64,000 bases of DNA from Verminephrobacter eiseniae EF01-2 (GTDB lineage: Bacteria; Pseudomonadota; Gammaproteobacteria; Burkholderiales; Burkholderiaceae_C). The notes below the pieces were generated by a model. It searched no databases. It saw only the letters and a program-made list of their open reading frames with translations, and was not told where the DNA came from. This document shows positions 2,937 through 61,876 of the stretch, piece after piece. Position 1 is the first letter of the stretch. Each line of letters opens with the position of its first letter. Both the position numbers and the translations under genes were made by a program. Location of the stretch: positions 4,948,501 through 5,012,500 of the forward strand of contig NC_008786.1 in the NCBI RefSeq assembly GCF_000015565.1, given 5' to 3'.

Positions 2937-5012
2937 ATGCCGTCGACACGCAAGCTCTTCGTCACCACCGCCCTGCCCTACGCGAATGGCCCGTTCCACC
3001 TCGGCCACCTGATGGAGTACATACAGGCCGACATCTGGGTGCGGTTTCAGAGGATGCAGGGCCACGAAGTGAACTTCGTCGGCGCAGACGACACCCATGG
3101 CGCGCCGATCATGATTGCCGCCGAAAAAGCCGGCAAGACGCCACAGCAGTTCGTGGCCGACATTGCGGCAGGCCGCAAGCCGTACCTGGACGGCTTTCAC
3201 CTGAGCTTTGACAACTGGCACAGCACCGATGCGCCGGAGAACCACGAACTGGCGCGCCAGATCTACCGCGACCTGCGCGACCGCGCCGATGGTTCGCTGA
3301 TCGAGCGGCGCAGCATCGAGCAGTTCTTCGACCCCGGCAAGAGCATGTTCCTGCCCGACCGCTACATCGTCGGCGAATGCCCGCGCTGCCACGCCAAGGA
3401 GCAGTATGGCGACAACTGCGAGCAGTGCGGCTCGGTGTATGCGCCCGCCGAACTGATCGACCCGGTCTCGGCCCTGTCCGGCGCCAAGCCCGAGCTCAGG
3501 AGTTCCGAGCATTTCTTCTTCAAGCTCTCCGACCCGCGCTGCGTGGAGTTTCTGCAGCGCTGGACGCAAGACGGCAAACTGCAACCCGAGGTGGCCAACA
3601 AGGTCCGGGAATGGTTTGGCCTGCGCAGCAACCCCGACGGCAGCTGCAGCGAGGGCCTCGATGACTGGGACATCAGCCGCGATGCGCCCTACTTCGGCAT
3701 CGAAATTCCCGATGCGCCGGGCAAATACTTCTATGTCTGGCTCGACGCGCCGGTGGGTTATCTGGCGGCGCTGAAGAACCTGCTGGAAAAGCGCGGCCAA
3801 AACTACGACGCCTACATGGCCGACCCGGCGCTGGAGCAGTACCACTTCATCGGCAAGGACATCGTCACCTTCCACACCCTGTTCTGGCCCGCGATGCTGC
3901 ACCTGAGCGGGCGCAAGACGCCGGACAACGTGTTCGTGCACGGCTTTTTGACCATCAACGGCGAGAAGATGAGCAAGAGCCGTGGCACGGGCCTGGACCC
4001 GCTCAAATACCTGAGCCTGGGCATGAACGCCGAGTGGCTGCGCTACTACCTGGCGACCAAGCTGAGCGCGCGCAACGAGGACATGGACCTCGGCACCGAG
4101 GACTTCATGGTGCGCGTGAACAGCGACCTGATCGGCAAATACGTGAACATTGCCAGCCGCGCTGCGGGCTTTTTGACCAAGCGCTTCGCCGGCCGGCTGA
4201 CCAGCGACTTCGGCGCCGCCGGCCTGGCCCTGCTGGCCGATCTGCATGGCGCCCGCGACACCATCGCGCAGTGGTACCAGGCGCGCGAGTTCGGCAAGGC
4301 GACGCGCGAGATCATGCTGCTGGCCGACAAGGTCAACGCCTATGTCGACCGGAACAAGCCCTGGGAATTGGCCAAGGATGCAGCGAACGGGCAGGCGCTG
4401 CACCAAGTCTGCTCGGTGCTGATCAACGCCTTCGCCACGCTCACACGCTACCTGTCGCCCGTGCTGCCCGCCCTGGCCCGCGCCGCGCAGGACTTTGTCG
4501 GCCAGGACATGCAGCGGTGGGATGCGGGCGGCGCTGTGCAGGCCATCGCGCCCTACCAGCACCTGATGCAGCGCGTGACGCCCGAGCAACTGGCCGCCCT
4601 GTTCCAGCCCCCGGCCGCTGCGCAGATCGCCGCTGCCGGCGCGCAAGAACCCGGCGGCCTGGCCCTGGCCCCCGGCATCGGCATCGACGACTTCGACCGC
4701 GTCGACCTGCGCGTTGCGCTGATCGTCGACTGCGCGGCCGTGGCAGGCTCGACCAAGCTGCTGCGCCTGACACTGGACATCGGCGAAGGCCGCCAGCGCC
4801 AGGTGTTCAGCGGCATCGCCAGCGCCTGCCAGCCGGCAGATCTGATCGGCAAACACACCGTGATGGTGGCCAACCTGGCGCCCCGCCGACTGAAGTTTGG
4901 CGTGAGCGAAGGCATGGTGCTGGCCGCCAGCCATGGCGACGAGAAAGCCAACCCCGGCATCTACCTGCTCGCGCCCGGGCCCGGCGCCAAGCCCGGCATG
5001 CGGGTGCGGTAG
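2937..5012 (+). CDS. metG: Methionine--tRNA ligase
   Basis: Methionyl-tRNA synthetase of 691 residues, charging tRNA-Met in the cytoplasm. The class I signatures are HLGH (21-24) and KMSKS (344-348). A zinc knuckle is formed by Cys148, Cys151, Cys161 and Cys164. The C-terminal EMAP/tRNA-binding OB domain starts near residue 582 ([15 protein letters not shown]), as in the long MetG form. The ATG at 2937 is chosen because [19 protein letters not shown] matches the family start; an in-frame TTG at 2904 would only add an unlikely 11-residue tail. It converges on the sensor kinase with a 9-bp gap. Confidence 0.97.
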
Positions 5013-5021
5013 GGCGGGCCA

Positions 5022-7235
5022 TCAGATGGCCGGCGCGCCGGGGTCGTTGCCGGCGAGCAGGCCCTGCACCGTGGCGCACAGTGCCTGCACATCGTCGGGT
5101 TTGTGGATCAGCGCCCGCGCGCCTTCGGCCAGCGCGGCCTGCTCGATTTCGGCCGTCACATGGCCCGATGTCAGGGCCACGGGCAGTTCCGGGCGGATCG
5201 AGCGGGCTTCACGCACCAGATCGACGCCGCAGAAACCGGGCATGTTGTAGTCGGTGACCAGCAGGTCATAGTCCTGCGGCGCAGCGCGCAATGCGGCGCG
5301 GGCCTGGCGCGGGTCGCTGTAGCCGCTGACCGCATAGCCCCGGCGGCGCAGCAGGCGTTGCACCAGAAACACCAGGGCCGGGTCATCGTCGACATACATC
5401 ACATGCGGCTGCCTGCGTGGCACGCTCTCCGCCAGGCCCGGCGTGCGGCTCGGCATGTCGGCCGAAGCGTTGGCCGGCGCGCTGCCCGGAGTGTTGCCCG
5501 AAGTGTTGCCCGGAAAAAGGGCGGGCGCGACCGGTTCCGGCCCGGCCGCTGCCTGCTGCGCGCTGCCGGGTGCCACCGGAAAGTACAGCGTGAAGCAACT
5601 GCCCTGGCCGGGCCTGCTGTGCACGGCAACGCTGCCCTCGTGGCTGCGCATCACGCCATGCACGACGGCCAGGCCCAGGCCCGTGCCCTGGCCGACGGGC
5701 TTGGTGGTAAAGAAAGGCTCGAAGATGCGCTCCAGCGTGGCCGCGTCCATGCCGGGGCCGGTGTCGCGCACGCTCAGTGCCACGTAGTCGCCGGGCGCCA
5801 GGCCCAGCCGCTCGATCAGGTGCTGGTCGGCCGACACCGTGGCGGCCTCGACATGGATGCTGCCGCGCCCGCTGCCGATGGCATGGATGGCGTTGGTGCA
5901 CAGGTTCAGCAGCGCCTGCCCGACCTGCGTGGCATCGGCCAGCACCCATGGCAGGCCCGGTTGCAACTGCATCTGTAGCCCGATGGCAGGGGGCAGGGTG
6001 ACGCGCAACAGGCGTTCGGTGTCGTGCACCATATCGGCGAGCGACAAGACCGAGCGCTGTGGCGGCTGGTTGCGGCTGAAGGTCAGGATCTGGCGCACCA
6101 GATCACGCGCGCGGCGGCCGGCCTTGTCGATTTCGAGCAGGCTTTGCAGCACCGGCGAGTCTGGCGCGCAGTCGGCCTGGGCCAGCGCCACGTTGCCGAG
6201 GATGGCGCCCAGGATGTTGTTGAAGTCGTGCGCAATGCCGCCGGCCATCGTGCCCACGGCCTGCATCTTGTGCGACTCGCGCAACTGCGCCTCCAGTTCG
6301 TTGCGCTCGGCCTCGGCCTTTTTGCGGCCCGTCAGGTCGCGCGCGAAGACGGTGGTGGTCTGGCCCTGGGCATGGCGCTCGAACGACAGGCTCACCTCCA
6401 GCGCCAATGGCTGGCCGCTGGCGCTTTGCGCCATCATCTCCCGGGTGCCGCTGCGGGCCTGCGCCAAGACCGCAGCGGCATCGGGCAGGAAGCGCTCCAG
6501 CCGGCTGCCCAGCGCGTCGCTGGCGTGGCACTGGAACAATGCCGCCGCCCGGGGGTTGAACACCGTGATGCGCTGGTGCTGGTCGACGCAGACGATGGCA
6601 TCGAGCGCCGCATCGATCACGGCGGCCAGCCGCTTCTGGCTGGCGTGCAACTGCCCGTTGCGCTGTTGCAGCGCGCGCGCGCTGCGCTGCAACGCCTGCC
6701 GCTCGGCCAGCAGCGGGCCTTGGTCGATCACTGCGCACAGGAACTGCGGCAGGGCATCCTGGGGCGCCTCGATGCGCGCAATATGCAGGTCGCCGGTGAT
6801 GCGCCCGTCCGCGCCGATCGCAAACACCACCTCCTTGGCCTGGCTGTGCCCCTGATTCCGGGCCTGGGCAAAGGCGGCCTGCACACGCGGCGCATCCTGG
6901 GCGCGCACGAAAGGCAGCAGGGCCGTCAGCGGCCGGTCGCGTTCACCGGGTTGAAAACAGCGGTGCGCCATCGCATTCGCCTGCACCACCACGTCATGCG
7001 AATCGAGCACCATCAGCGCCAGGGGCACGCTGGCAAACAATGTCTCGAAGCGCTCGTAGGTGCTCTCGGCCACGGCCTGGCTGTAGCGCAAGACCTCGTT
7101 TTGGCGCTCGAGCTCGGCCACCAGGGCCTCGGCAGACAGGCCGGCGGCAGGCGCGCGCTGCGCCGCAAGGGGTGCGACGGGAGCGAGATGCCGCCACGCA
7201 GCGGGGTCGAGAAAAGACAGATCGGGTTCAGTCAT
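5022..7235 (-). CDS. Hybrid sensor histidine kinase / response regulator with PAS domains
   Basis: A 737-residue soluble hybrid kinase. Two PAS-type segments occupy about residues 50-320. The HisKA motif GTMAGGIAHDFNNILG follows with phospho-acceptor His336. The HATPase core has the N box (LLNLCTNAIHAIG), G1 (DTGPGMD) and G2 (GTGLGLAVVHG). A C-terminal receiver has the acidic pair VDDDP and phospho-acceptor Asp662 (VTDYNMPG). No transmembrane helix is seen, so it should sense a cytoplasmic signal. A low-complexity linker rich in Pro/Ala/Gly/Asn separates kinase and receiver. No DNA-binding regulator is adjacent, so the output is unknown. Confidence 0.92.
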   Translation of the reverse strand: MTEPDLSFLDPAAWRHLAPVAPLAAQRAPAAGLSAEALVAELERQNEVLRYSQAVAESTYERFETLFASVPLALMVLDSHDVVVQANAMAHRCFQPGERDRPLTALLPFVRAQDAPRVQAAFAQARNQGHSQAKEVVFAIGADGRITGDLHIARIEAPQDALPQFLCAVIDQGPLLAERQALQRSARALQQRNGQLHASQKRLAAVIDAALDAIVCVDQHQRITVFNPRAAALFQCHASDALGSRLERFLPDAAAVLAQARSGTREMMAQSASGQPLALEVSLSFERHAQGQTTTVFARDLTGRKKAEAERNELEAQLRESHKMQAVGTMAGGIAHDFNNILGAILGNVALAQADCAPDSPVLQSLLEIDKAGRRARDLVRQILTFSRNQPPQRSVLSLADMVHDTERLLRVTLPPAIGLQMQLQPGLPWVLADATQVGQALLNLCTNAIHAIGSGRGSIHVEAATVSADQHLIERLGLAPGDYVALSVRDTGPGMDAATLERIFEPFFTTKPVGQGTGLGLAVVHGVMRSHEGSVAVHSRPGQGSCFTLYFPVAPGSAQQAAAGPEPVAPALFPGNTSGNTPGSAPANASADMPSRTPGLAESVPRRQPHVMYVDDDPALVFLVQRLLRRRGYAVSGYSDPRQARAALRAAPQDYDLLVTDYNMPGFCGVDLVREARSIRPELPVALTSGHVTAEIEQAALAEGARALIHKPDDVQALCATVQGLLAGNDPGAPAI

Positions 7236-27959: not shown

Positions 27960-29021
27960 TTACTGCGCCGCAATGCGATCGAGAATCTTGCCTTCGCGCT
28001 GCTCCAGACCGGCAGGAATCGGCGGGAACCATCTGACGTGCGCGATGGCTTGCGGCGAGTAGATGCGTTCCAGGCTCTTGCGCAGCTTTTCCGAGGCAAA
28101 ATCCTGCGCGCCCACCGAGGCCGTCATATTGCCGGACGACTGCATGATGAGCGCGGCGTTCTCTGGCCGCATGACGAAATCCACCCACTTGTAAGCGGCC
28201 TCGTCGGCCCGGCCCTTGGCGGGTAGCACGAAGGTATCGATCCAGCCCAGCGGGTTCTTGTCATAGCCGGTGTCCATGCCCTCTTCCTGCAACTTGATGG
28301 CATGCAAATCCCACCCCTCGGCGGCCACGACTTCGCCGGAGCGCATCATGTTCAGCAGATCGTCGGAGTTGTTCCAATAGGCTTTCACATTGGCTTTGCA
28401 GGCCGCCAGCTTTTGCCCGGCGCGGTCGATGATGCCCTGATACTTGTCCGGCTCGCCATAGGCAGCAAAGGGGTCATCGCCATTGGCAAACGCCATCAGA
28501 ATCAGCGCGGGCCTCCGGATGCGCATCGTCACCTTGCCCTTGTGGGCATCGGCGCACAGGTCGGCGATGCTCGACACATTGGGCGCCTTGGCATGGTTCG
28601 TCAGCACGCCCAGGGTGCCCCAGGTAAAAGGCAGCGCATAGACCTTGCCGGCGATGGTGGCGCTGGCCTTGGCCGCCTCCAGCAGGCTGGGAGTGAACTG
28701 CTGGAGCTTGACCTTGGACAGATCCAGCGGCTTGTAGATACGAAAATCCGCCTGCGGCCCGACAATCCGGTCGTGGCTGGGCTGCGCCAAGTCAAACCCG
28801 GCGCCGCCGGTGGCGCGCAGCCTGGAGATGATGTCCTCATTGTTCGAGAGCGTGATTTGCACATCGATGCCGGTTTCCTGCTTGAACTTTTTGACCAACT
28901 CCGGCGGCGCGTAATTGCCCCAGGTCAGCAATCTGAGGGTTTCGGCAGATGCGGTGGCAGTGGCGGCCAGGCCCACCAATCCTGCCAGCACACTGGCAAG
29001 GTAATGCTTCGCTTTCGTCAT
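27960..29021 (-). CDS. Spermidine/putrescine-type ABC substrate-binding protein (paralogue 1)
   Basis: A 353-residue periplasmic binding protein of the PotD class. The signal peptide ends ASA before ETLRLLTWGNYAPP. It has NNEDIISRLRATGGAGFDL, YALPFTWGTLGVLTN and the SGEVVAAEGWD region. A strong AAAGGAGA site precedes the ATG. It is very similar over its whole length to the next upstream gene. No potA/B/C genes flank it, so it must share a membrane complex encoded elsewhere. Confidence 0.88.
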   Translation of the reverse strand: MTKAKHYLASVLAGLVGLAATATASAETLRLLTWGNYAPPELVKKFKQETGIDVQITLSNNEDIISRLRATGGAGFDLAQPSHDRIVGPQADFRIYKPLDLSKVKLQQFTPSLLEAAKASATIAGKVYALPFTWGTLGVLTNHAKAPNVSSIADLCADAHKGKVTMRIRRPALILMAFANGDDPFAAYGEPDKYQGIIDRAGQKLAACKANVKAYWNNSDDLLNMMRSGEVVAAEGWDLHAIKLQEEGMDTGYDKNPLGWIDTFVLPAKGRADEAAYKWVDFVMRPENAALIMQSSGNMTASVGAQDFASEKLRKSLERIYSPQAIAHVRWFPPIPAGLEQREGKILDRIAAQ

Positions 29022-29187
29022 GGCTCGATCTCCTTTGGGTTGACACAAAATTTCATCGGACTTTTCATCCCGCTTTGCCCACACCTGCTGCCGGCATTGC
29101 CCCTGCCCCGGCGAGCGGAATGGCAGACATCATGCGCCATGCGTCTGGCACATCCAGGCACATGCCCAGGCCATTGCAGCCCTGCAC

Positions 29188-30246
29188 CTACTGCGCCGCG
29201 ACGCGATCGAGAACCTTGCCCTCGCGCAGTTCCAGGCCGGCGGGAATTTGCGGGAACCACCTGATGCTGGCAATCGCTTGCGGCGAATAGATGCGTTGCA
29301 GGCTTTGGCGCAGCTTTTCAGGGGCCACATCCTGCGCACCCACCGAGGCCGTCATATTGCTCGACGATTGCATGATGAGCGCGGCGTTCTCTGGCCGCAT
29401 CACGAAATCGATCCATTGGTAAGCGGCACCATCGGCCCGGCCCTTGGCGGGCAGCACGAAGGTATTGATCCAGCCCAGCGGGTTTTTGTCATAGCCGATG
29501 TCCATGCCCTCGCCCTGCAACTTGAAGGCATGCGAATCCCAGCCCTCGGTGGCCACGATTTCACCGGAGCGCATCATGTTCAGCAAATCGTCAGAGTTGT
29601 TCCAATAGGCTTTCACATGGGCTTTGCAGGCTGCCAGCCTTTGCCCGGCGCGGTCGATGATGGCTTGGTACTTGTCCGGCTCGCCATAGGCGGCAAAGGG
29701 GTCATCGCCATGGGCAAACGCCATCAACATCAGCGCGGGCCGCCGGATGCGCATCGCCACCCGGCCCTTGTAGGCATCGGCGCACAGGTCGGCAATGCTC
29801 GACACCTTGGGCGCCTTGGCATGGTTCGTCAGCACACCCAGAGTGCCCCAGGTAAAAGGCAACGCATAGACCTTGCCGGCGATGGTAGTGCTGGCCTTGG
29901 TCGCCTCCAGCAGGCCGGGGGTGAACTGCGAGAGCTTGACCCGGGACAGATCCAGCGGCTTGTAGATACGAAAATCCGCCTGCGGCCCGACAATCCGGTC
30001 GTGGCTGGGTTGCGCCAAGTCAAACCCGGCGCCGCCGGTGGCGCGCAGCCTGGAGATGATGTCCTCATTGTTCGACAACGTAACCTGCACCTCGATGCCG
30101 GTCTCTTGCCTGAATTTTTGCACCAGCGCCTCTGGCGCCAGGTCGCTCCAGGTCAGCAGTCTCAAGGTCTCGGCGGAGGCGACGCTTGCGGCAGCCGCCA
30201 GGCCCACCAAGCCCGTCAGCAAAACAAGCCGCTTCATTTTCATCAT
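29188..30246 (-). CDS. Spermidine/putrescine-type ABC substrate-binding protein (paralogue 2)
   Basis: A 352-residue tandem paralogue of the preceding gene, with the same leader architecture (ASA before ETLRLLTWSDLAPE) and near-identical ligand-pocket segments. Differences cluster in the signal peptide, the first mature 30 residues and scattered surface positions. The 166-bp spacer between the copies, plus an individual ribosome site for each, suggests a duplication kept as two expressed genes. Start placed at the double methionine 30246. Confidence 0.88.
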   Translation of the reverse strand: MMKMKRLVLLTGLVGLAAAASVASAETLRLLTWSDLAPEALVQKFRQETGIEVQVTLSNNEDIISRLRATGGAGFDLAQPSHDRIVGPQADFRIYKPLDLSRVKLSQFTPGLLEATKASTTIAGKVYALPFTWGTLGVLTNHAKAPKVSSIADLCADAYKGRVAMRIRRPALMLMAFAHGDDPFAAYGEPDKYQAIIDRAGQRLAACKAHVKAYWNNSDDLLNMMRSGEIVATEGWDSHAFKLQGEGMDIGYDKNPLGWINTFVLPAKGRADGAAYQWIDFVMRPENAALIMQSSSNMTASVGAQDVAPEKLRQSLQRIYSPQAIASIRWFPQIPAGLELREGKVLDRVAAQ

Positions 30247-30368
30247 CGTCGCGTCTCCATTGACATGCTTCCTGTCCGACTGCTCTTGCAGGGCGCTGCC
30301 TGCTTGGCCCCGCACCCCGGATGGCAAGCGCTAAGCTACGCCAACAGTGGCTTGGCACAAATACCCAT

Positions 30369-31930: not shown

Positions 31931-33417
31931 ACCCCTCCCTCGACGCACTGATCACCGAATTTCGCAACACCGGCACACTCAGCGGCTTGCCGTGCGCGCA
32001 ATTCATCGACGGCGCTTATCAGGCTGGCGCGACCAGCGCTGCGCTGGAGAGCTTCGACCCCGGCAGTGGCCGTGTCTTTGCGCAATTTGCCGCCGGCGGC
32101 GAGGTCGAGGTCGATGCGGCCGTGCACGCTGCAAAGCGCGCCTTGCCTGCCTGGAGCGAGACCGCGCCCGCCGAGCGCAGCCGCGTGCTCTGGGCCATTG
32201 CGCAGCAGGTGCGCCAACATGCCGACCGGCTGGCGCTCATCGAGTGCCTGGATAGCGGCAAGCGGCTTGGCGAGGCCCAGGGCGATGTGCGCGGCGTGAT
32301 ACGCGCCTTCGAGTATTACGCGGGCGCGGTAGACAAGATGCAGGGGGACAGCTTTCCGCTCGGCAAGGACTACATCGGCTTTACCGTCGAGGAGCCGATC
32401 GGCGTTGCGGCGCAGATCATCCCTTGGAATTACCCGGTCGGCACCGCCGCGCGCGGCATCGCTCCGGCACTGGCCGCCGGTTGCACCGTGGTTGCCAAAC
32501 CCGCAGAGCAAACCCCCTTGTCGGCGTTGCTGTTGGCCGAACTGGCCAGCGCCGCCGGCCTGCCTGCGGGCGTGCTCAACGTCGTCACCGGCACTGGCGC
32601 GGCGGCGGGCGCAGCGCTGGTAGCGCACCCGGGCATTGGCCACATCACCTTCACCGGTTCGGTCGCCACCGGGCAACGGGTCATGCGCGCCGCCGCCGAC
32701 AACGTGACGCGCGTGCTGCTCGAACTGGGCGGCAAATCACCGCTGGTCGTTCTGGCCGACTGCGATGTCGAGCAGGCGCTCGATGGCGTACTCGGCGCCA
32801 TCTACGAGAACGCCGGGCAGATCTGCTCGGCAGGCTCGCGCCTCATCATCGAACGCAAACTGCATGGCAGCTTCATGGCGCGGCTGCTGGAGCGGGTCGG
32901 CAAACTGGGGCTGGGTCACGGCCTGGACCAGCCGGATGTCGGCCCGGTCAATTCGCTGCTGCATCTGAACCGCATACACGAGCATGTCGCCACCGCCGCC
33001 GCGCGCGGCAATGCGGTGCTTGCGGGCGGCAGCATCGCCCAGCCCGCGAACGCGCCGGGCGGATGGTTTTATCGCCCCACGGTGATCGAGGCACGGTCGG
33101 CGCAAGACCCGGTGGTGCAGGAAGAAATCTTCGGCCCGGTGCTGGTGGTGCAGCAAGCCGACGATCTGGAACAAGCCATCGCACTGGCCAACGGCACCGA
33201 CTACGCGCTGGTGGCAGGCATTTACACCAGAGACATCACGCAGGCTTACCGCTTCGCCCGCCGTGTCGATGCCGGGCAGGTCTACATCAACGAATACTTC
33301 GCCGGCGGCATCGAAGTCCCGTTCGGAGGCAACCGCAAATCCGGCTTTGGCCGTGAAAAAGGTCTGGAAGGAATCAAGAGCTATTGCAAGCTCAAGAGTG
33401 TGGTGGCGCGGGTTTAG
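31927..33417 (+). CDS. NAD(P)-dependent aldehyde dehydrogenase
   Basis: A 496-residue class I/II aldehyde dehydrogenase. The active-site Glu266 is in LLELGGKSP and the nucleophile Cys300 in GQICSAGSR. The NAD-binding FTGSVATGQ and the C-terminal [15 protein letters not shown] are intact. It oxidises an aldehyde to the acid, probably a product linked to the preceding enolase-family enzyme. The TAG stop lies exactly at the edge of the downstream IS relic, but the C-terminus ending LKSVVARV has normal family length. Confidence 0.93.
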
Positions 33418-33879
33418 GGCGTATCAACAATCAATGGACTATATCCATATTCGGCTCTTTGAATGAATAGGAGCCCAAGATGCAAGAAGTCAGAAAACTA
33501 CCATGTGATGAACAATGGGAGAAATTATCTCCGTCATTACCGGGCAAGCCGAGCGATCCTGGTGCGACCGCCCAGGCCAATCGACTATTTTTGGAAACGG
33601 TGTTGTGGATCATGCGCACGGGTTCACCATGGCGAGACTTGCCTGCAGAATTGGGCACCGTGCGACGGCGGTCATTCCACCCAGGCGCAATCGTGTGGTG
33701 CAGCGAAGTCATGATCGACATCTGTACAAGGAGCGCAATGTGGTCGAGCGTTTTTTTAATCGGATCAAGCAATTCCGAAGAATCGCAACTCGTTATGAAA
33801 AGCTGGCGCGTAACTACCTGTCGTTTCTCAATCTGGTTTGTACTTATATCTGGATTACTTGATTGTTAACATGCCCTAG
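33415..33879 (+). mobile_element. Internally deleted IS5-family element
   Basis: Imperfect terminal inverted repeats (TAGGGCGTATCAACAATCAA at the left; rightward inverse of TAGGGCATGTTAACAATCAA) bound 465 bp. An N-terminal transposase piece starts at 33480 (MQEVRKLPCDEQWEKL ... MRTGSPWRDLP). After about 33660 a different frame gives the C-terminal piece NVVERFFNRIKQFRRIATRYEKL to 33862. The central DDE core is gone, so this is a dead non-autonomous copy. Confidence 0.8.
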
Positions 33880-34001
33880 CCGGTGTTTTCGGTTTTCTCA
33901 GTCCAGGCGCACACCGCCCGGTAGGAATCCCTGAAGATCAGATGACGCGGCTTGGCCGTTCCTTCGCGCTCAATATGTGCTGGCTCCTGATCAAGAACCA
34001 T
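33876..34001 (-). CDS. Short unidentified ORF or gene remnant
   Basis: A 41-codon reverse frame starts MVLDQEPAHIEREGTAKP and ends TEKTENTG at a TAG that lies on the IS5-relic boundary. The amino-acid composition is protein-like, and it may be the truncated C-terminus of a gene cut by the IS. No family was recognised. Confidence 0.25.
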   Translation of the reverse strand: MVLDQEPAHIEREGTAKPRHLIFRDSYRAVCAWTEKTENTG

Positions 34002-34058
34002 CTCGCGCGAATTCCACAGCTATGAACCTCGCGACTTAAATGCACAAGGACCAACAAC

Positions 34059-35063
34059 ATGCCGTTTGAGATCAGGCCCTGGGAAGCGATTGCGGAAAAC
34101 TACGGATGCACAATTCTGCTCGGCAACGGTGCCAGCATCTCCGTCAGTCCGACCTTCTCCTACGGCTCGCTGCTGCAACATGCCGCCGAGTACAACCTGC
34201 TCCCCGTGGATGCTCAGCGGTTGTTCAAGTTCTTTCGGACCAACGACTTCGAGCTGGTTCTTCGTATCGTCTGGCAGGCATCAAACGTCAATCGTTTACT
34301 ACAAATTCCGGACGAGCGGACCCATGCCGCCTACGTGGGTCTTAGGGACTGCCTCATCCAAACAGTCCGCGACATTCATCCGGAGCATGGTGCGGTAAGC
34401 GCCCACCTGCCGAGCATCTATCAATTCCTGAAGCGGTTCAGAACCGTCATCTCGCTCAACTACGACCTGGTGGTGTACTGGGCTATGACCTACGGGTTGG
34501 CCATCGACGACCAGCATGCGTTCAAGGACTGCTTTGTGGGAGGTGGCACCTTCAACGATGACTGGCAGCGATTCAGGCAGCCGATCCGGAGAGAACGTTC
34601 AACCTCGCTGGTGTTCTATGCGCATGGCAGTCTGGTGTTGTGCCGAAACCTGGTCGAGCAGGAGCGCAAGATCCACAACCTTCAGGACGGGCTGCTGGAG
34701 GCGGTCCTGCAGCGCTGGCAAAACGGAGAGGTCGTGCCTTTGTTCGTGAGCGAGGGAACGTGGCGGCAGAAAGTTACTTCCATCCAAAACAGCTACTACC
34801 TCTCCACCGTATACAGAGAGGTGCTGAAATCGCAGCGGGACACGCTGGTGGTTTATGGCTGGGGCTTCGCCAAGCAAGACATTCACCTACTGCAACGAAT
34901 GAAAGACACCGGCATCAATCGTGTGGCGGTGTCAGTATTTGGAGGGGGTCAGGCGTACTGCAACCGGGTCTTCCAGACGATCCGCGACGAATTGGGAGCA
35001 CATGTCAAGGTGGAGTTCTTCGACAGCGAGAGCCCCGGTTGCTGGATTCATCCAGCTCACTAA
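34059..35063 (+). CDS. DUF4917 family protein, SIR2-like
   Basis: A 334-residue protein matching the DUF4917 pattern. It has LLGNGASIS (20-28), the SLNYDLVVYWAM motif (Asn134, Asp136), FYAHGSL (His189), then PLFVSEGTWRQK, and VYGWGFAKQDIHLL (265-278). The glycine loop, N-x-D and H-G motifs are arranged as in SIR2-like NAD-consuming effectors of phage-defence systems, but enzymatic activity is not established. Base composition appears lower in GC than the flanks. A co-directional gene begins 26 bp downstream and is truncated by an IS630 element, so the pair looks like a damaged two-gene cassette between mobile elements. Confidence 0.82.
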   Translation: MPFEIRPWEAIAENYGCTILLGNGASISVSPTFSYGSLLQHAAEYNLLPVDAQRLFKFFRTNDFELVLRIVWQASNVNRLLQIPDERTHAAYVGLRDCLIQTVRDIHPEHGAVSAHLPSIYQFLKRFRTVISLNYDLVVYWAMTYGLAIDDQHAFKDCFVGGGTFNDDWQRFRQPIRRERSTSLVFYAHGSLVLCRNLVEQERKIHNLQDGLLEAVLQRWQNGEVVPLFVSEGTWRQKVTSIQNSYYLSTVYREVLKSQRDTLVVYGWGFAKQDIHLLQRMKDTGINRVAVSVFGGGQAYCNRVFQTIRDELGAHVKVEFFDSESPGCWIHPAH

Positions 35064-35089
35064 ATGGTGGAAAACCTAGGAGCCGCGCT

Positions 35090-35266
35090 GTGTCATCAAT
35101 GCTAGACAGGTTCTACGAGCGTTCCGCCCATCTGAACGTATTGCTGAACAGCAATCCTGCCGAGGCGGTAAAACAGGCCAGGGAGATCAATCTCAATCTC
35201 GATACGGATGAGCGTTGCAACATGATGGGTCTGCGAACAGCTATCCTAGTGGACTGTAATTATTGA
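35090..35266 (+). pseudogene. Truncated partner gene downstream of DUF4917
   Basis: A frame opens at GTG 35090, seven nucleotides after AGGAG (ATG 35099 is alternative). It encodes a helical, TPR-like stretch including LDRFYERSAHLNVLLNSNP and EINLNLDTDERCNMMGLRTAIL. It is interrupted at codon 53 by the IS630 element at 35249 and ends on an IS-derived stop at 35266. Sequence beyond the IS (36060 onward) does not obviously resume it, so the 3' part has probably been deleted. The family was not recognised. Confidence 0.6.
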
Positions 35267-36019
35267 ATCAGGAGTAATTATCCGAGTTGTGTCGAAGTAC
35301 TTCCACTTCACGGACTTGGGTTGCTCGTTGTACTTGCGGATGTAGCGCATGAGCTTTCTCTTGAGATCGGGTACCGAGATGAATACGCCGCGAGCGATCC
35401 TGAAGTACTCAAAGCCATGACGCTCGGCACGCCCCGGCGTGAGCGGCAGCACCGGGTCTTTGCGATCGAGCGCCTGAATCGCCGTCTTCTCGTCGACGCT
35501 GAAGACGGCCGCATGCTGCGGCGGGTTCAGATACAAGCCGATGACATCGGCTGCCTTGGTTTCAAAGTCCGGATCGTTGGAGGCGAGATAGCCTTCGAGC
35601 CGATGCGGTTTGAGTCCGTGCTTGGCCCAGATGCGCGCCACGGTCATGTGCGAGATGTCGCCACCAAGTTCGGCAGCGAGCTTGCGCGTGGACCAGTGCG
35701 TGGAACCATCGGCGGGCTTGTGCATGGTCGTGCGCGCCAGCACACGCGCCTCCAGGCGGTCGGTGACCTTGTAGCGCTGGCGGCCGGCATGGCGAGAAAA
35801 CAAGCCTGCCAAACGGTCAGCGGCGAAGCGCTTGCTCCAGAGAGCAATGTAGCTGTCATTGCAATCGAGCTTGGCCCTGATGGCGCTCCAGGTCAGTCCC
35901 TCGGCAAGCAGCAAGATCAGACGCGCACGACGCGCCAAATCCGCTCGAACGGACCTTCCATTGGCTTGCTGGCGCAGTTCCACGATTTCGGCTTCGGTCA
36001 AGTTCATCGTGTCCTCCAA
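35246..36019 (-). pseudogene. IS630-family transposase with in-frame internal deletion
   Basis: A 257-residue open frame from 36019. The N-terminal HTH (MNLTEAEIVELRQQANGR), the linker and the first catalytic Asp (VFSVDEKTAIQALDR) are present. After RAERHGFEYF the sequence jumps to IARGVFISVPDLKRKLMRYIRKYNEQPK, the C-terminal end. Roughly 100 residues that carry the second and third acidic residues are missing, so it cannot be catalytically active. Confidence 0.85.
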
Positions 36020-36057
36020 GGAGGTAATTTACTATCTATTTAAACGTTATGGACCAC
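35249..36057 (-). mobile_element. IS630-type element inserted at CTAG
   Basis: Terminal inverted repeats begin GTGGACTGTAA (left) and GTGGTCCATAA (right, read inwards). The element is flanked by TA duplicates at 35247-35248 and 36058-36059, each within CTAG, the known IS630 target. Its 809 bp carry only the deleted transposase. Confidence 0.8.
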
Positions 36058-36140
36058 TAGCCATGCAGGCCGCGACCGTGGGCTTGGATTTCGCTGGTCG
36101 ACCCGCTGCCGCAGGCAGGCCATCGGCCTTCAAGGCGCGT

Positions 36141-58853: not shown

Positions 58854-59786
58854 TCACGAATTGGCTTGCTTGGCCTGAGCCGCATGCCAGTCTTGCTCGA
58901 ACCGCACCGGGCTGACGTACGCCAGCGTGGAGTGCAGCCGGGTGCGGTTGTACCAGAGTACCCAGGCGATGACCTCGTCCTTGGCCTGGCGCCGCGTCAC
59001 GAAGCGCTGCCCATGCAGTCGCTCCACCTTCAACGAACCGAACAGGGTCTCGCTGCAGGCGTTGTCCCAGCAGTTGCCCTTGCGGCTCATCGAGGCCGTG
59101 ATGCCGCACTGGACGAGCACGTCCCTGAAGTCCTCGCTGGCGTATTGGCTGCCCCGGTCGCTGTGCAAGATCAGCCCGGCATGCTTGCGCGGATGGCGCT
59201 TGAACCAGGCCATGCGCACAGCATCGATGACGATGTCGCGCGTCATGTCCTCGCGCAGTGACCAGCCCACCACCTGGCGGCTGAACAGGTCGATCACCAC
59301 GGCCAGGAACAGCCAGCCTTCGTCGGTTGCGATGTAGGTGATGTCGCCCACCCAGACCTTGTCGGGTTCGGCCACATCGAACTGTCGATCCAGCAGATTG
59401 GGGGCGATCGGCAGGTCATGCTTGCTGTCCGTGGTGACCTTGAAGCGGCGCTTGCCCTTGGCCCGGATGCCGTGCAGTTGCATGAGCTTGCGCACCCGCT
59501 CCTTGCCCACCCGGATGCCCCTGGCCAGCAGTTCCTTCCACGTGCGCGGCCAGCCGTAGCCGCCCCGCGTTTCGGCGTGGATCACCTCGATGTGCACCAG
59601 CAGCGCGTCGTCGCTGAGATGGTGCCGCTGGGCCGCGCTGGCTCTACGAACGAAGTGTTCGTGGTAGCCGGTGATGCTGGCCTGCAGGACTCGGCACTGC
59701 ACAGAGATCGGCCACGCCTGGCGGTTGCGGTGAATGAAGGCGTACTTCAGCTCTGCGCTTTCGCGAAGTACGCCGTCGCTTTTCCC
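58854..59786 (-). CDS. IS3-family transposase OrfB
   Basis: The integrase part of the transposase with an IS3-type DDE core: VWVGDITYIATDEGWLFLAVVIDLFSR (first Asp), ILHSDRGSQYAS (second Asp) and SRKGNCWDNACSETLFGSLK (Glu). The frame is open back to the shift site and is probably made as an OrfAB fusion by -1 frameshifting at AAAAG (reverse complement of 59779-59783). An ATG at 59702 could start a separate OrfB. Confidence 0.93.
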   Translation of the reverse strand, partial: GKSDGVLRESAELKYAFIHRNRQAWPISVQCRVLQASITGYHEHFVRRASAAQRHHLSDDALLVHIEVIHAETRGGYGWPRTWKELLARGIRVGKERVRKLMQLHGIRAKGKRRFKVTTDSKHDLPIAPNLLDRQFDVAEPDKVWVGDITYIATDEGWLFLAVVIDLFSRQVVGWSLREDMTRDIVIDAVRMAWFKRHPRKHAGLILHSDRGSQYASEDFRDVLVQCGITASMSRKGNCWDNACSETLFGSLKVERLHGQRFVTRRQAKDEVIAWVLWYNRTRLHSTLAYVSPVRFEQDWHAAQAKQANS

Positions 59787-60040
59787 AAGATGTCACGCTC
59801 CATCTTCACGCGTGCCAGCTCCGCGCGCAGCCGGCTGATCTCCATCTGCTCGACGCTCACTGCCTTGCTGTCAGCGCCTGTGAGCTTGCCCAGGCGATCC
59901 GCCTTGACCCAGTTGAACAGCGTCTGCTCCACCACGCCCAGCGTCCTGGCCGCCGCTGCGATGCTCTGGCCGCCATGGACCAGCCGCACCGCCTCCTGCT
60001 TGAATTCCAGCGTGTAGCGCGCCCGCACTGTCTTCGTCAT
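59747..60040 (-). CDS. IS3-family transposase OrfA
   Basis: A 97-residue DNA-binding protein: helix-turn-helix YTLEFKQEAVRLVHGGQSIAAAARTLG ... EQTLFNWVKA, followed by a leucine-zipper-like helix ISRLRAELARVKMERDILGKA. The start at 60040 (MTKTVRARYTLEFK) matches the family. The stop at 59747 lies beyond the frameshift site into OrfB. Confidence 0.93.
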   Translation of the reverse strand: MTKTVRARYTLEFKQEAVRLVHGGQSIAAAARTLGVVEQTLFNWVKADRLGKLTGADSKAVSVEQMEISRLRAELARVKMERDILGKATAYFAKAQS

Positions 60041-60318
60041 TTCCGTTTTCCTTGCTTGCATTGAACCACTCAGCAAGGGATACGTTTTTCGGGGGCAGGG
60101 TCAAGATCGACCGCAGCTACGTGAGCCGCATGGTCAACCTGACGACCTTGGCTCCGGACATCCAGGCCGCGATCCTCGACGAGACTTTGCCCGAAGAAGT
60201 GGTGCTCTTCGATCTGGCCATCGACGCGCCGCTGTGCTGGCAGGCACAGCGCCAGCGTGTTGCCAATGTCGTCTCCAATGTTCGTGCGGGCAAAACACAG
60301 CCTGCTGCGCAGACTTGA

Positions 60319-60697
60319 CGGAATTCTTTCTCTCGCTGTTTTTACGATGCTGCCCGATGCTCGAAAAAACATCCGTGGTCGCCACCATGCGTAAGTCATT
60401 GATTTTGCAGGACCCGTCCTTGCGGACTTGGCCGTTTGCGCGTCCGCAGGGAGTAGAGAAAGAGAGAGGAAAAACGGGTCAGAAACGCCAAAATCAGGCC
60501 TCGCGGTGGGTGGCCAAGTCCGCAAGCCCAAGTGAAAAACCCCGCCAGGCTTGAGTCGTGACGAGGTTGATCGAAATGCAAAGAGAGTGTCTTTGCAAGT
60601 TTTAGTGGTGGTGGAATACGGAACTGAACCCAAAACCACTTTTGAGGATCGAGCGAACGATTGACAATGCTTGTAACCTTACTGCGGATTGGATTCC
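60319..60697. other. Intergenic region with a long inverted repeat
   Basis: No convincing gene. CTTGCGGACTTGGCC (60419-60433) recurs exactly inverted as GGCCAAGTCCGCAAG (60512-60526), 78 bp apart. The segment may be the remnant edge of the mobile module that carried the HTH gene. Confidence 0.4.
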
Positions 60698-61876
60698 TCA
60701 TGAACTTTGGTGCATCCGCATCTGATGAAGCTGATCCAACTTAGCGAACACGGTTGCCAGTGCATAGCCAACCAACACCAGCACCGCCATAGACTCTATG
60801 CCGAAAACATCTATGACCACGCCTGTGAGTACTGGGCCAGCCATTTGGCCTGCTGCGCATGCGATGGTTGCCACTGCGAGGGCACTGGGTCCCACATCGG
60901 CATCCACACGCTCGCGGGCATAGGCACTGGCTACAGCGGGCGCGGCTGTCAGCCCTAGGCCCACAAGCATGGCACTGGCAATCGCAAAGCCATTGCCAGT
61001 GCCCAGAGACGCCAGGGCACCCAGTGCGCCAATGGCAACGGTCGCCGTCATTGCATGCGGGCGCAGCCGCCCTCGCATCAGCAAGGGCATTGCCAACGAG
61101 CCGACCGCCGCCGTCACGCCGAAGGCCGTCCACAGCCACGCCGCCGAGGTTAGCGTACCGGCCAGGCCCTGCACCAGGCGCGTCAGCGCGAAGGTGGCAT
61201 AAACGAAGTACGCGAACCCGTAAAGCGCGTAGGCCACTAGCAGGTAGGTGGAGTCGCGCAGCTGGCGCAGTCCGTCGATCATGCGCACCTTGTGTGCTCC
61301 CGCCCGCGCCGCCGCATAGGGCGGAAAGGGCACAAGCCCGGCTAGGACCGCAATGACAAGCGCGGGCGCCGCACACACCATAGAAACCGTGCGCCAACGG
61401 CCTGTCTGCTCCAGCGCCCAACTACCTGCCGGCGCTGAAATCACCATGCCCAACGCGACGCCGGTCCAGATGACGGCGCTGACCAACATCCACCGCCGCG
61501 GCTCTACCGACTCCAGCGATGCGCCGAGCGCACTGAGCACGCCCAGCCCGGTGGACAGCCCAAGGAACACCCGCACCGCCGCCAGCATCTCGACCGAGGC
61601 AGCTTGCGCCTGCACCACCAAGCCCAGCGCGACCAGCAGATGCGCCCACACGAAGACTGAGCGCCAGCCCAGGCGACGCAACACCAGCGGCGCCAGCATC
61701 GAGCCGACCAGGTAGCTACCCAAGTGTAGGGTAGCAATCATTCCGTACAGCCCGAACGTGCCGGGCAGCTCGGCCTTCATCGCCGGCAGGGTCAGGCCAA
61801 AGCCCAGCCGAGTAACGCCGATATCCACCGCCAGCGCAGCCGCCGCGAGCGGCAAGATCAGCCGACCGGTGTTCAC
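60698..61876 (-). CDS. MFS transporter, YbfB/YjiJ family
   Basis: A 392-residue major facilitator with about 12 hydrophobic helices. The YbfB-type start LPLAAAALAVDIGVTRLGFGLTLPAM and the loop WMLVSAVIWTGVALG are visible. Its ATG overlaps the stop of the upstream decarboxylase gene. It is likely an exporter or importer for the amine or amino acid of that enzyme. Confidence 0.87.
   Translation of the reverse strand: MNTGRLILPLAAAALAVDIGVTRLGFGLTLPAMKAELPGTFGLYGMIATLHLGSYLVGSMLAPLVLRRLGWRSVFVWAHLLVALGLVVQAQAASVEMLAAVRVFLGLSTGLGVLSALGASLESVEPRRWMLVSAVIWTGVALGMVISAPAGSWALEQTGRWRTVSMVCAAPALVIAVLAGLVPFPPYAAARAGAHKVRMIDGLRQLRDSTYLLVAYALYGFAYFVYATFALTRLVQGLAGTLTSAAWLWTAFGVTAAVGSLAMPLLMRGRLRPHAMTATVAIGALGALASLGTGNGFAIASAMLVGLGLTAAPAVASAYARERVDADVGPSALAVATIACAAGQMAGPVLTGVVIDVFGIESMAVLVLVGYALATVFAKLDQLHQMRMHQSS

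Follow-up and report, generated by a model that had tools for sequence, protein, structure and literature searches.

A probable remnant of a modular defence island with an apparently intact SIR2-like DUF4917 gene in Verminephrobacter eiseniae

SIR2 effectors occur in Lamassu systems, and PrrC is coupled to its host restriction-modification operon. In SIR2-HerA (Nezha), a HerA gene adjoins. ABC-3C systems are counted within the Lamassu superfamily (PMC10586767), DdmABC has been described as an ABC-3C layout (PMC12409362), and the fusion of LA2681 HEPN domains to tetratricopeptide repeats (TPR) has already been listed (PMC3710099). Here, we describe a locus of Verminephrobacter eiseniae EF01-2 (genome, 5.6 Mb) in which a gene encoding a DUF4917 protein is followed by the start of a TPR-like partner gene and lies between two insertion sequence (IS) elements. 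The 64,000 nucleotides that were analysed, positions 4,948,501-5,012,500 of contig NC_008786.1, are referred to as the window. The locus is, in our judgement, probably the decaying remnant of a modular defence island that has kept one apparently intact gene for a SIR2-like effector, which probably depletes nicotinamide adenine dinucleotide (NAD).

The DUF4917 protein covers the whole PF16263 profile and matches the PADLOC model PDC-S21 over nearly its full length as well (E=1e-122); judging from its label, we take PDC-S21 to be a one-gene defence candidate. The predicted model of the protein adopts a SIR2-type Rossmann fold, and its best structural match is SIR2 of SIR2-HerA, although identity to the window protein is 10-16%. 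The open reading frame (ORF) in the window is motif-complete; NYD and HG are invariant in all 33 DUF4917 members compared, and GNGxS is present in 32 of them. The SIR2-like identity that an earlier note had proposed from the letters of this DNA is thus supported by the predicted fold and the motifs. The NYD and HG residues presumably correspond to the catalytic residues known from SIR2 structures. There was no match to the canonical sirtuin profile PF02146 at E-values up to 10, so DUF4917 was not filed as a canonical sirtuin, and searching PDB chains with the DUF4917 alignment gave no sequence match at E-values up to 10.

A scan of genome contigs with DUF4917 yielded nine close relatives (L002-L010), 89-93% identical, from Lysobacter, Acidovorax, Pseudothauera, Thauera, Paraburkholderia and four metagenome-assembled genomes. 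In their intact cassettes, the genes follow one another on one strand in the order 306-aa CTD10 protein, middle component of MC6 type (about 83 aa), 573-aa DUF2326 ATPase, a 260-aa protein designated C260, and DUF4917. The first three genes, hereafter the triad, resemble an ABC-3C (Lamassu-like) system with MC6 and CTD10 (PADLOC PDC-M68), and the ATPase corresponds to PDC-M68B and is a distant match to LmuB; the domain scans were done on L006, and the MC6 profile was tested on a plasmid homologue. The triad and C260 precede DUF4917 in all eight close relatives having upstream sequence, while the contig of the ninth (L005) starts 130 bp ahead of C260. A 519-aa HEPN gene follows DUF4917 in four of the nine (L002, L005, L006 and L007) after gaps of 19-72 bp. 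L010 has only the last 23 codons of this gene, and in L008 a transposase gene splits DUF4917. Unlike SIR2-HerA, DUF4917 relatives have this TPR-like and HEPN gene instead of a HerA gene; no HerA ATPase was found among the scanned neighbour ORFs of the window (IS elements and metabolic genes) and the close relatives (ABC-3C genes, C260 and the TPR-HEPN gene). C260 matched no Pfam (E-values up to 10), NCBIfam or PADLOC model and had 721 homologues in a protein search. The gene (L006:7185-7967) occurs in varied contexts, including a plasmid with restriction and GTPase-associated genes. CTD10 was matched twice in L006, in the C-terminal part of the 306-aa protein (4288-5208; 5.9e-26) and at residues 273-399 of the ATPase (5450-7171; 4.4e-30), so the two proteins may share or swap that part.

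When compared with these cassettes, the window was found to have lost everything to the left of C260 codon 212, with an IS5-type relic at the break, and, on the right, everything after the first 53 codons of the HEPN gene, with an IS630-type element at the break. The native upstream region of DUF4917 is gone. The triad is the lost left part of the cassette; neither its ATPase nor its CTD10 gene was found in the window by tblastn, and the window itself is therefore not assigned to ABC-3C. The C260 remnant, which was overlooked in the earlier note, encodes residues 212-259 with 92% identity to the relatives. The relic to its left, which that note did recognise, consists of an IS4/5-type N-terminal part (PF13340) and a DDE C-terminal part (PF13586) that are out of frame with each other, and it adjoins the stop codon of an aldehyde dehydrogenase gene on one side and the C260 stump on the other. 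On the right, the IS630 transposase ORF matches NF033545 (E=8.5e-30), and TA dinucleotides (35247-48 and 36058-59) bracket the element. Relative to other copies in the same genome, the IS630-type element is about 293 bp and the IS5-type relic about 377 bp shorter through internal loss; several longer copies of both exist elsewhere in this genome.

The IS630 element had been thought to cut the partner after 52 codons. The element does lie at the break, but 53 codons remain, and a simple interruption was rejected, as the DNA beyond the element is not partner sequence: the right flank matches only loci of the window's own genome and none of the four intact relatives. Because the C260 remnant abuts the IS5 relic and the right flank has no match to the HEPN gene, both sides of the island are missing rather than just interrupted. 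The old empty site was not seen in flanking-gene searches of 12 relatives, because nothing closer than 45% to the flanking aldehyde dehydrogenase is present in them. Throughout the genome, 41 stretches match the IS630-type and 16 the IS5-type element, counting full and partial copies and the window's own, so islands may often have been lost there in connection with these elements. In E. coli, IS1 splits DUF4917 in 8 of 30 listed records (36 genomes matched; hits H58-H65); together with the transposase gene inside DUF4917 of L008, this suggests that loss of DUF4917 by insertion is recurrent.

The AT-rich composition described in the earlier note was confirmed, with a GC content of 0.566 for DUF4917 and 0.509 for the partner stump vs. 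0.650 for the whole window, whose three lowest-GC 1-kb bins start at 33001-34501. The DUF4917 genes of eight relatives range from 0.538 to 0.563, and a low GC content of this gene, both here and in these relatives, is as expected for a travelling gene.

The partner begins 26 bp after the DUF4917 stop codon, most likely at the GTG at 35090, which aligns with codon 1 of the intact relatives and is preceded by AGGAG; the gap and the good ribosome site had both been read correctly before. Although tblastn aligns 55 codons, the stump was counted as 53, since the final two aligned codons come by chance from the end of the IS element. The intact partner has 519 residues, matches PF18733 (HEPN_LA2681; E=2e-36, tested on L006) and keeps an R-x4-H motif whose R431 and H436 are invariant in 37 aligned sequences. 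The window retains only the first 53 codons and none of the HEPN domain, and the R-x4-6-H motif that marks LA2681 HEPN domains is accordingly not found there. The predicted model of the TPR-HEPN protein is poor (mean per-residue confidence, pLDDT, 65.5): roughly the first 240 residues are for the most part helical and predicted with confidence, whereas the HEPN half is not. Its 30 sequence matches in the PDB (E-values up to 1) are mostly designed TPR proteins, around residues 136-177, and include the TPR part of OGT. The description of the partner as a helical, TPR-like protein missed the HEPN domain, and the partner as a TPR gene only was rejected. Coordinates of the locus, which is bounded on the left by the aldehyde dehydrogenase gene (stop 33417) and on the right by a minus-strand gene for a LacI-type regulator (ends 36141), are given from left to right in Table 1.

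Table 1. Elements of the damaged DUF4917 locus, in window coordinates
Feature	Position	Strand	Evidence
IS5/IS4-type relic	33417..33876	+	PF13340 2.9e-14, PF13586 1.2e-8, different frames; both ends present, middle deleted
C260 3' stump, codons 212-259 of 260 (48-codon gene end)	33876..34019	+	91.7% identity over 48 aa by tblastn (E=1e-24); complete in L002-L010
DUF4917 gene, 334 aa, apparently intact	34059..35063	+	PF16263 E=4e-159; PADLOC candidate PDC-S21
AGGAG, ribosome-binding-site-like, 7 nt ahead of GTG 35090	35078..35082	+	sequence reading
TPR-like + HEPN_LA2681 5' stump, 53 of 519 codons	35090..35248	+	whole gene in L002, L005, L006, L007
IS630-type element, internally shortened	35249..36057	-	transposase ORF 35246-36019 (-)
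IS630 right flank	36060..36140	.	no match to remainder of HEPN gene

To place the family in a wider setting, a further 25 DUF4917 loci (L022-L046) were read, 17 from genomes and 8 from annotated records, with flanks mostly of 5-9 kb and a minimum of 1.5 kb at contig ends. The 17 were taken from 27 non-window DUF4917 genomes; the other 10 were left out for a partial, weak or split match or because two genomes of their genus were already included. Two of the 17 share a genus, and the DUF4917 proteins of L040 and L043 are the same. In the 17 genomes, 98 ORFs around DUF4917 were compared with 97 control ORFs from elsewhere (longest ORFs called by a crude script; PADLOC matches at E-values up to 1e-10). 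The neighbours matched 226 PADLOC families, while the controls matched 12, each with at most 3 ORFs. ORF counts are fairer than these family totals, because the models are redundant and one hsdS gene matches 76 families and another 81. Among the 25 of the 226 families that were listed, type I specificity models were matched by up to 8 neighbour ORFs and methylase models by up to 7. In 6 of the 17 genomes (L025, L026, L028, L031, L033 and L036), DUF4917 has a type I gene of hsdS or hsdM type as its neighbour on the same strand, and in five of these six hsdS lies directly upstream. In the same row as DUF4917, L028 also has an Abi_2 gene and L025 a Schlafen-type gene, and in L026 a weak, sub-cut-off HEPN-like gene stands between DUF4917 and a methylase-specificity fusion. 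Neighbours in two more genomes are RmrA (L034) and PD-Lambda-2 genes (L035). One E. coli and one K. pneumoniae locus, with the same DUF4917 protein, lie near a retron Eco8 set and an ABC-3C set different from the triad. Less telling are L041, L045 and L046, where the listed neighbours are arsenic, housekeeping or mixed toxin-antitoxin genes. Enrichment near defence genes, which the earlier note had put forward for checking, is thus borne out, and the DUF4917 family sits in defence islands.

The genes of the cassette were also found apart from one another. First, tblastn at 1e-4 detected neither the triad ATPase nor the 306-aa protein, C260 or the HEPN gene in the 25 further DUF4917 loci. Second, plasmids of Enterobacter and Polaromonas (86% ATPase identity each) and Phaeobacter (51%) carry the triad but neither C260 nor DUF4917. 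Third, C260 was found without DUF4917 at five loci with a nearly whole gene and two with fragments, and HEPN relatives without DUF4917 were found at four loci, these being either distant, at 28-37%, or fragmentary (62% over 138 aa). The contexts read for close HEPN relatives are those reached through DUF4917; close relatives of HEPN and C260 were also named in P. aeruginosa, K. pneumoniae and others, whose contexts lie outside these counts. No match to the 519-aa HEPN gene or C260 was seen in E. coli genomes at blastn sensitivity, scans of viral contigs gave no relative of DUF4917 or of the HEPN gene, and phage records gave no DUF4917 match. An identity to the query of at least 77% was reached by at least 76 of 120 listed HEPN clusters vs. 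30 of 120 listed DUF4917 clusters, an indirect sign that the HEPN gene may travel more widely than DUF4917, or that the two families instead differ in rate. On the loci read, the picture is one of separate modules that would have been stacked in one island.

Several observations weigh against the interpretation of the locus as the remnant of such an island with a SIR2-like effector. In addition to the low identity given above, the rmsd of the DUF4917 model to SIR2 chains is large (4-7 Å). The Pfam search of the protein at E-values up to 10 returned DUF4917 alone, which leaves fold and motifs as the basis of the SIR2 link. Pairwise dN/dS of DUF4917 against eight relatives is low (0.075-0.165), but this mostly reflects selection predating the damage. 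Finally, the constant position of the triad and C260 right before DUF4917 in the close relatives also fits a functional link.

Such a link would make DUF4917, with C260, an extra effector arm of the upstream ABC-3C/Lamassu-like system: the SMC-like ATPase would sense foreign DNA and release the SIR2 NADase together with the 306-aa CTD10 component. The invariable order in the eight relatives and the E. coli and K. pneumoniae loci, which also place DUF4917 beside an ABC-3C set, are consistent with this scenario. However, the latter set differs from the triad and lies on the opposite strand, the same triad does without C260 and DUF4917 on the two plasmids with 86% ATPase identity, and its ATPase was not found in the 25 other loci. 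Moreover, since the search that gave the nine close relatives started from DUF4917 and they are all closely related, their shared order, including that of the eight with upstream sequence, may be a single event. We regard the effector-arm role as possible, though improbable.

A suicide-gene role for DUF4917 has an equally tentative place: coupled to restriction-modification as a backup, it would fire, in the manner of PrrC, when restriction is blocked. The same-strand type I neighbours in 6 of the 17 genomes, along with the Abi_2 and Schlafen-type genes, speak for it. Yet the type I-linked members are only distantly related (identity, about 24-45%), the window's own clade showed no type I gene next to DUF4917, and the co-location also fits loose clustering in defence islands. 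We give the same low credence to a more speculative explanation: DUF4917 might be a plug-in SIR2 NADase joined to whatever DNA-sensing defence its host has, with failure of the first line leading to NAD loss and a TPR-HEPN RNase doubling it in some cassettes. The DNA-sensing hosts would be type I restriction operons for the distant members and the ABC-3C/Lamassu-like ATPase for the window's clade.

It is very doubtful that DUF4917 and its partner form a dedicated two-gene system, in which the TPR part would sense and SIR2 and HEPN would kill. The two genes are adjacent on the same strand, with short gaps in the four intact relatives and in the window. However, the partner is missing from five of nine close relatives (one of which has the 23-codon tail) and was not found in the 25 further loci, and a conserved two-gene unit, as proposed in the earlier note, was therefore rejected on the basis of the loci read. 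In a family draw of 399 genomes, DUF4917 was found in 6 and a relative of the 519-aa HEPN gene in at least 8 (up to 3 candidates were scored per genome, so some may be missed); the window's genome, where the HEPN gene is a stump, was the only one on both lists. Some HEPN relatives also stand apart from DUF4917, but the ones read are fragments or only distantly related. Least likely of all is an ordinary NAD-dependent deacylase or metabolic enzyme on mobile DNA, which the sirtuin-like fold and the putative function of the family would allow, but which fits poorly with the enrichment of defence neighbours over control ORFs and with the rare and patchy occurrence of DUF4917 in three draws (6 of 399, 11 of 369 and 14 of 398 genomes, the window's own included).

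Under the favoured interpretation as an island remnant, a modular island would have been acquired horizontally and then cut on both sides. DUF4917 would act as a self-sufficient SIR2-type effector: upon phage infection, or upon failure of a neighbouring system, it would hydrolyse NAD+, and the infected cell would stop supporting the phage. In the intact relatives, the HEPN gene may cleave RNA as a module of its own; the stump left in the window is probably non-functional. The apparent gene pair of the window is then what remained once the flanking DNA was lost.

The gene parts are of known kinds and DUF4917 is already a PADLOC candidate, so the locus is fairly ordinary in this respect. DUF4917, labelled as of unknown function, nevertheless gains a predicted SIR2-type fold and a defence context, and the recurrent adjacency to hsdS in type I restriction operons makes testable the idea of a SIR2 effector backing up restriction. 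In the literature searched, which was without subscription papers, supplements and preprints, the accessible text mentioned DUF4917 only in a gene table of an Arcobacter plasmid, with no tested function, and there was no mention of PDC-S21. Nor was any text found there that joins SIR2 with embedding in hsdS type I restriction-modification, or that combines Lamassu, SIR2, HEPN and LmuB.

Elsewhere in the window, a second low-GC stretch was noted at 59747-60700 (0.559 at 60001-61000), with a short minus-strand ORF that looks IS3-type transposase-like by eye. The adjacent minus-strand genes at 27960-29084 and 29188-30327 are 86.5% identical over 327 residues and represent a tandem duplication; by eye, both appear solute-binding-protein-like.

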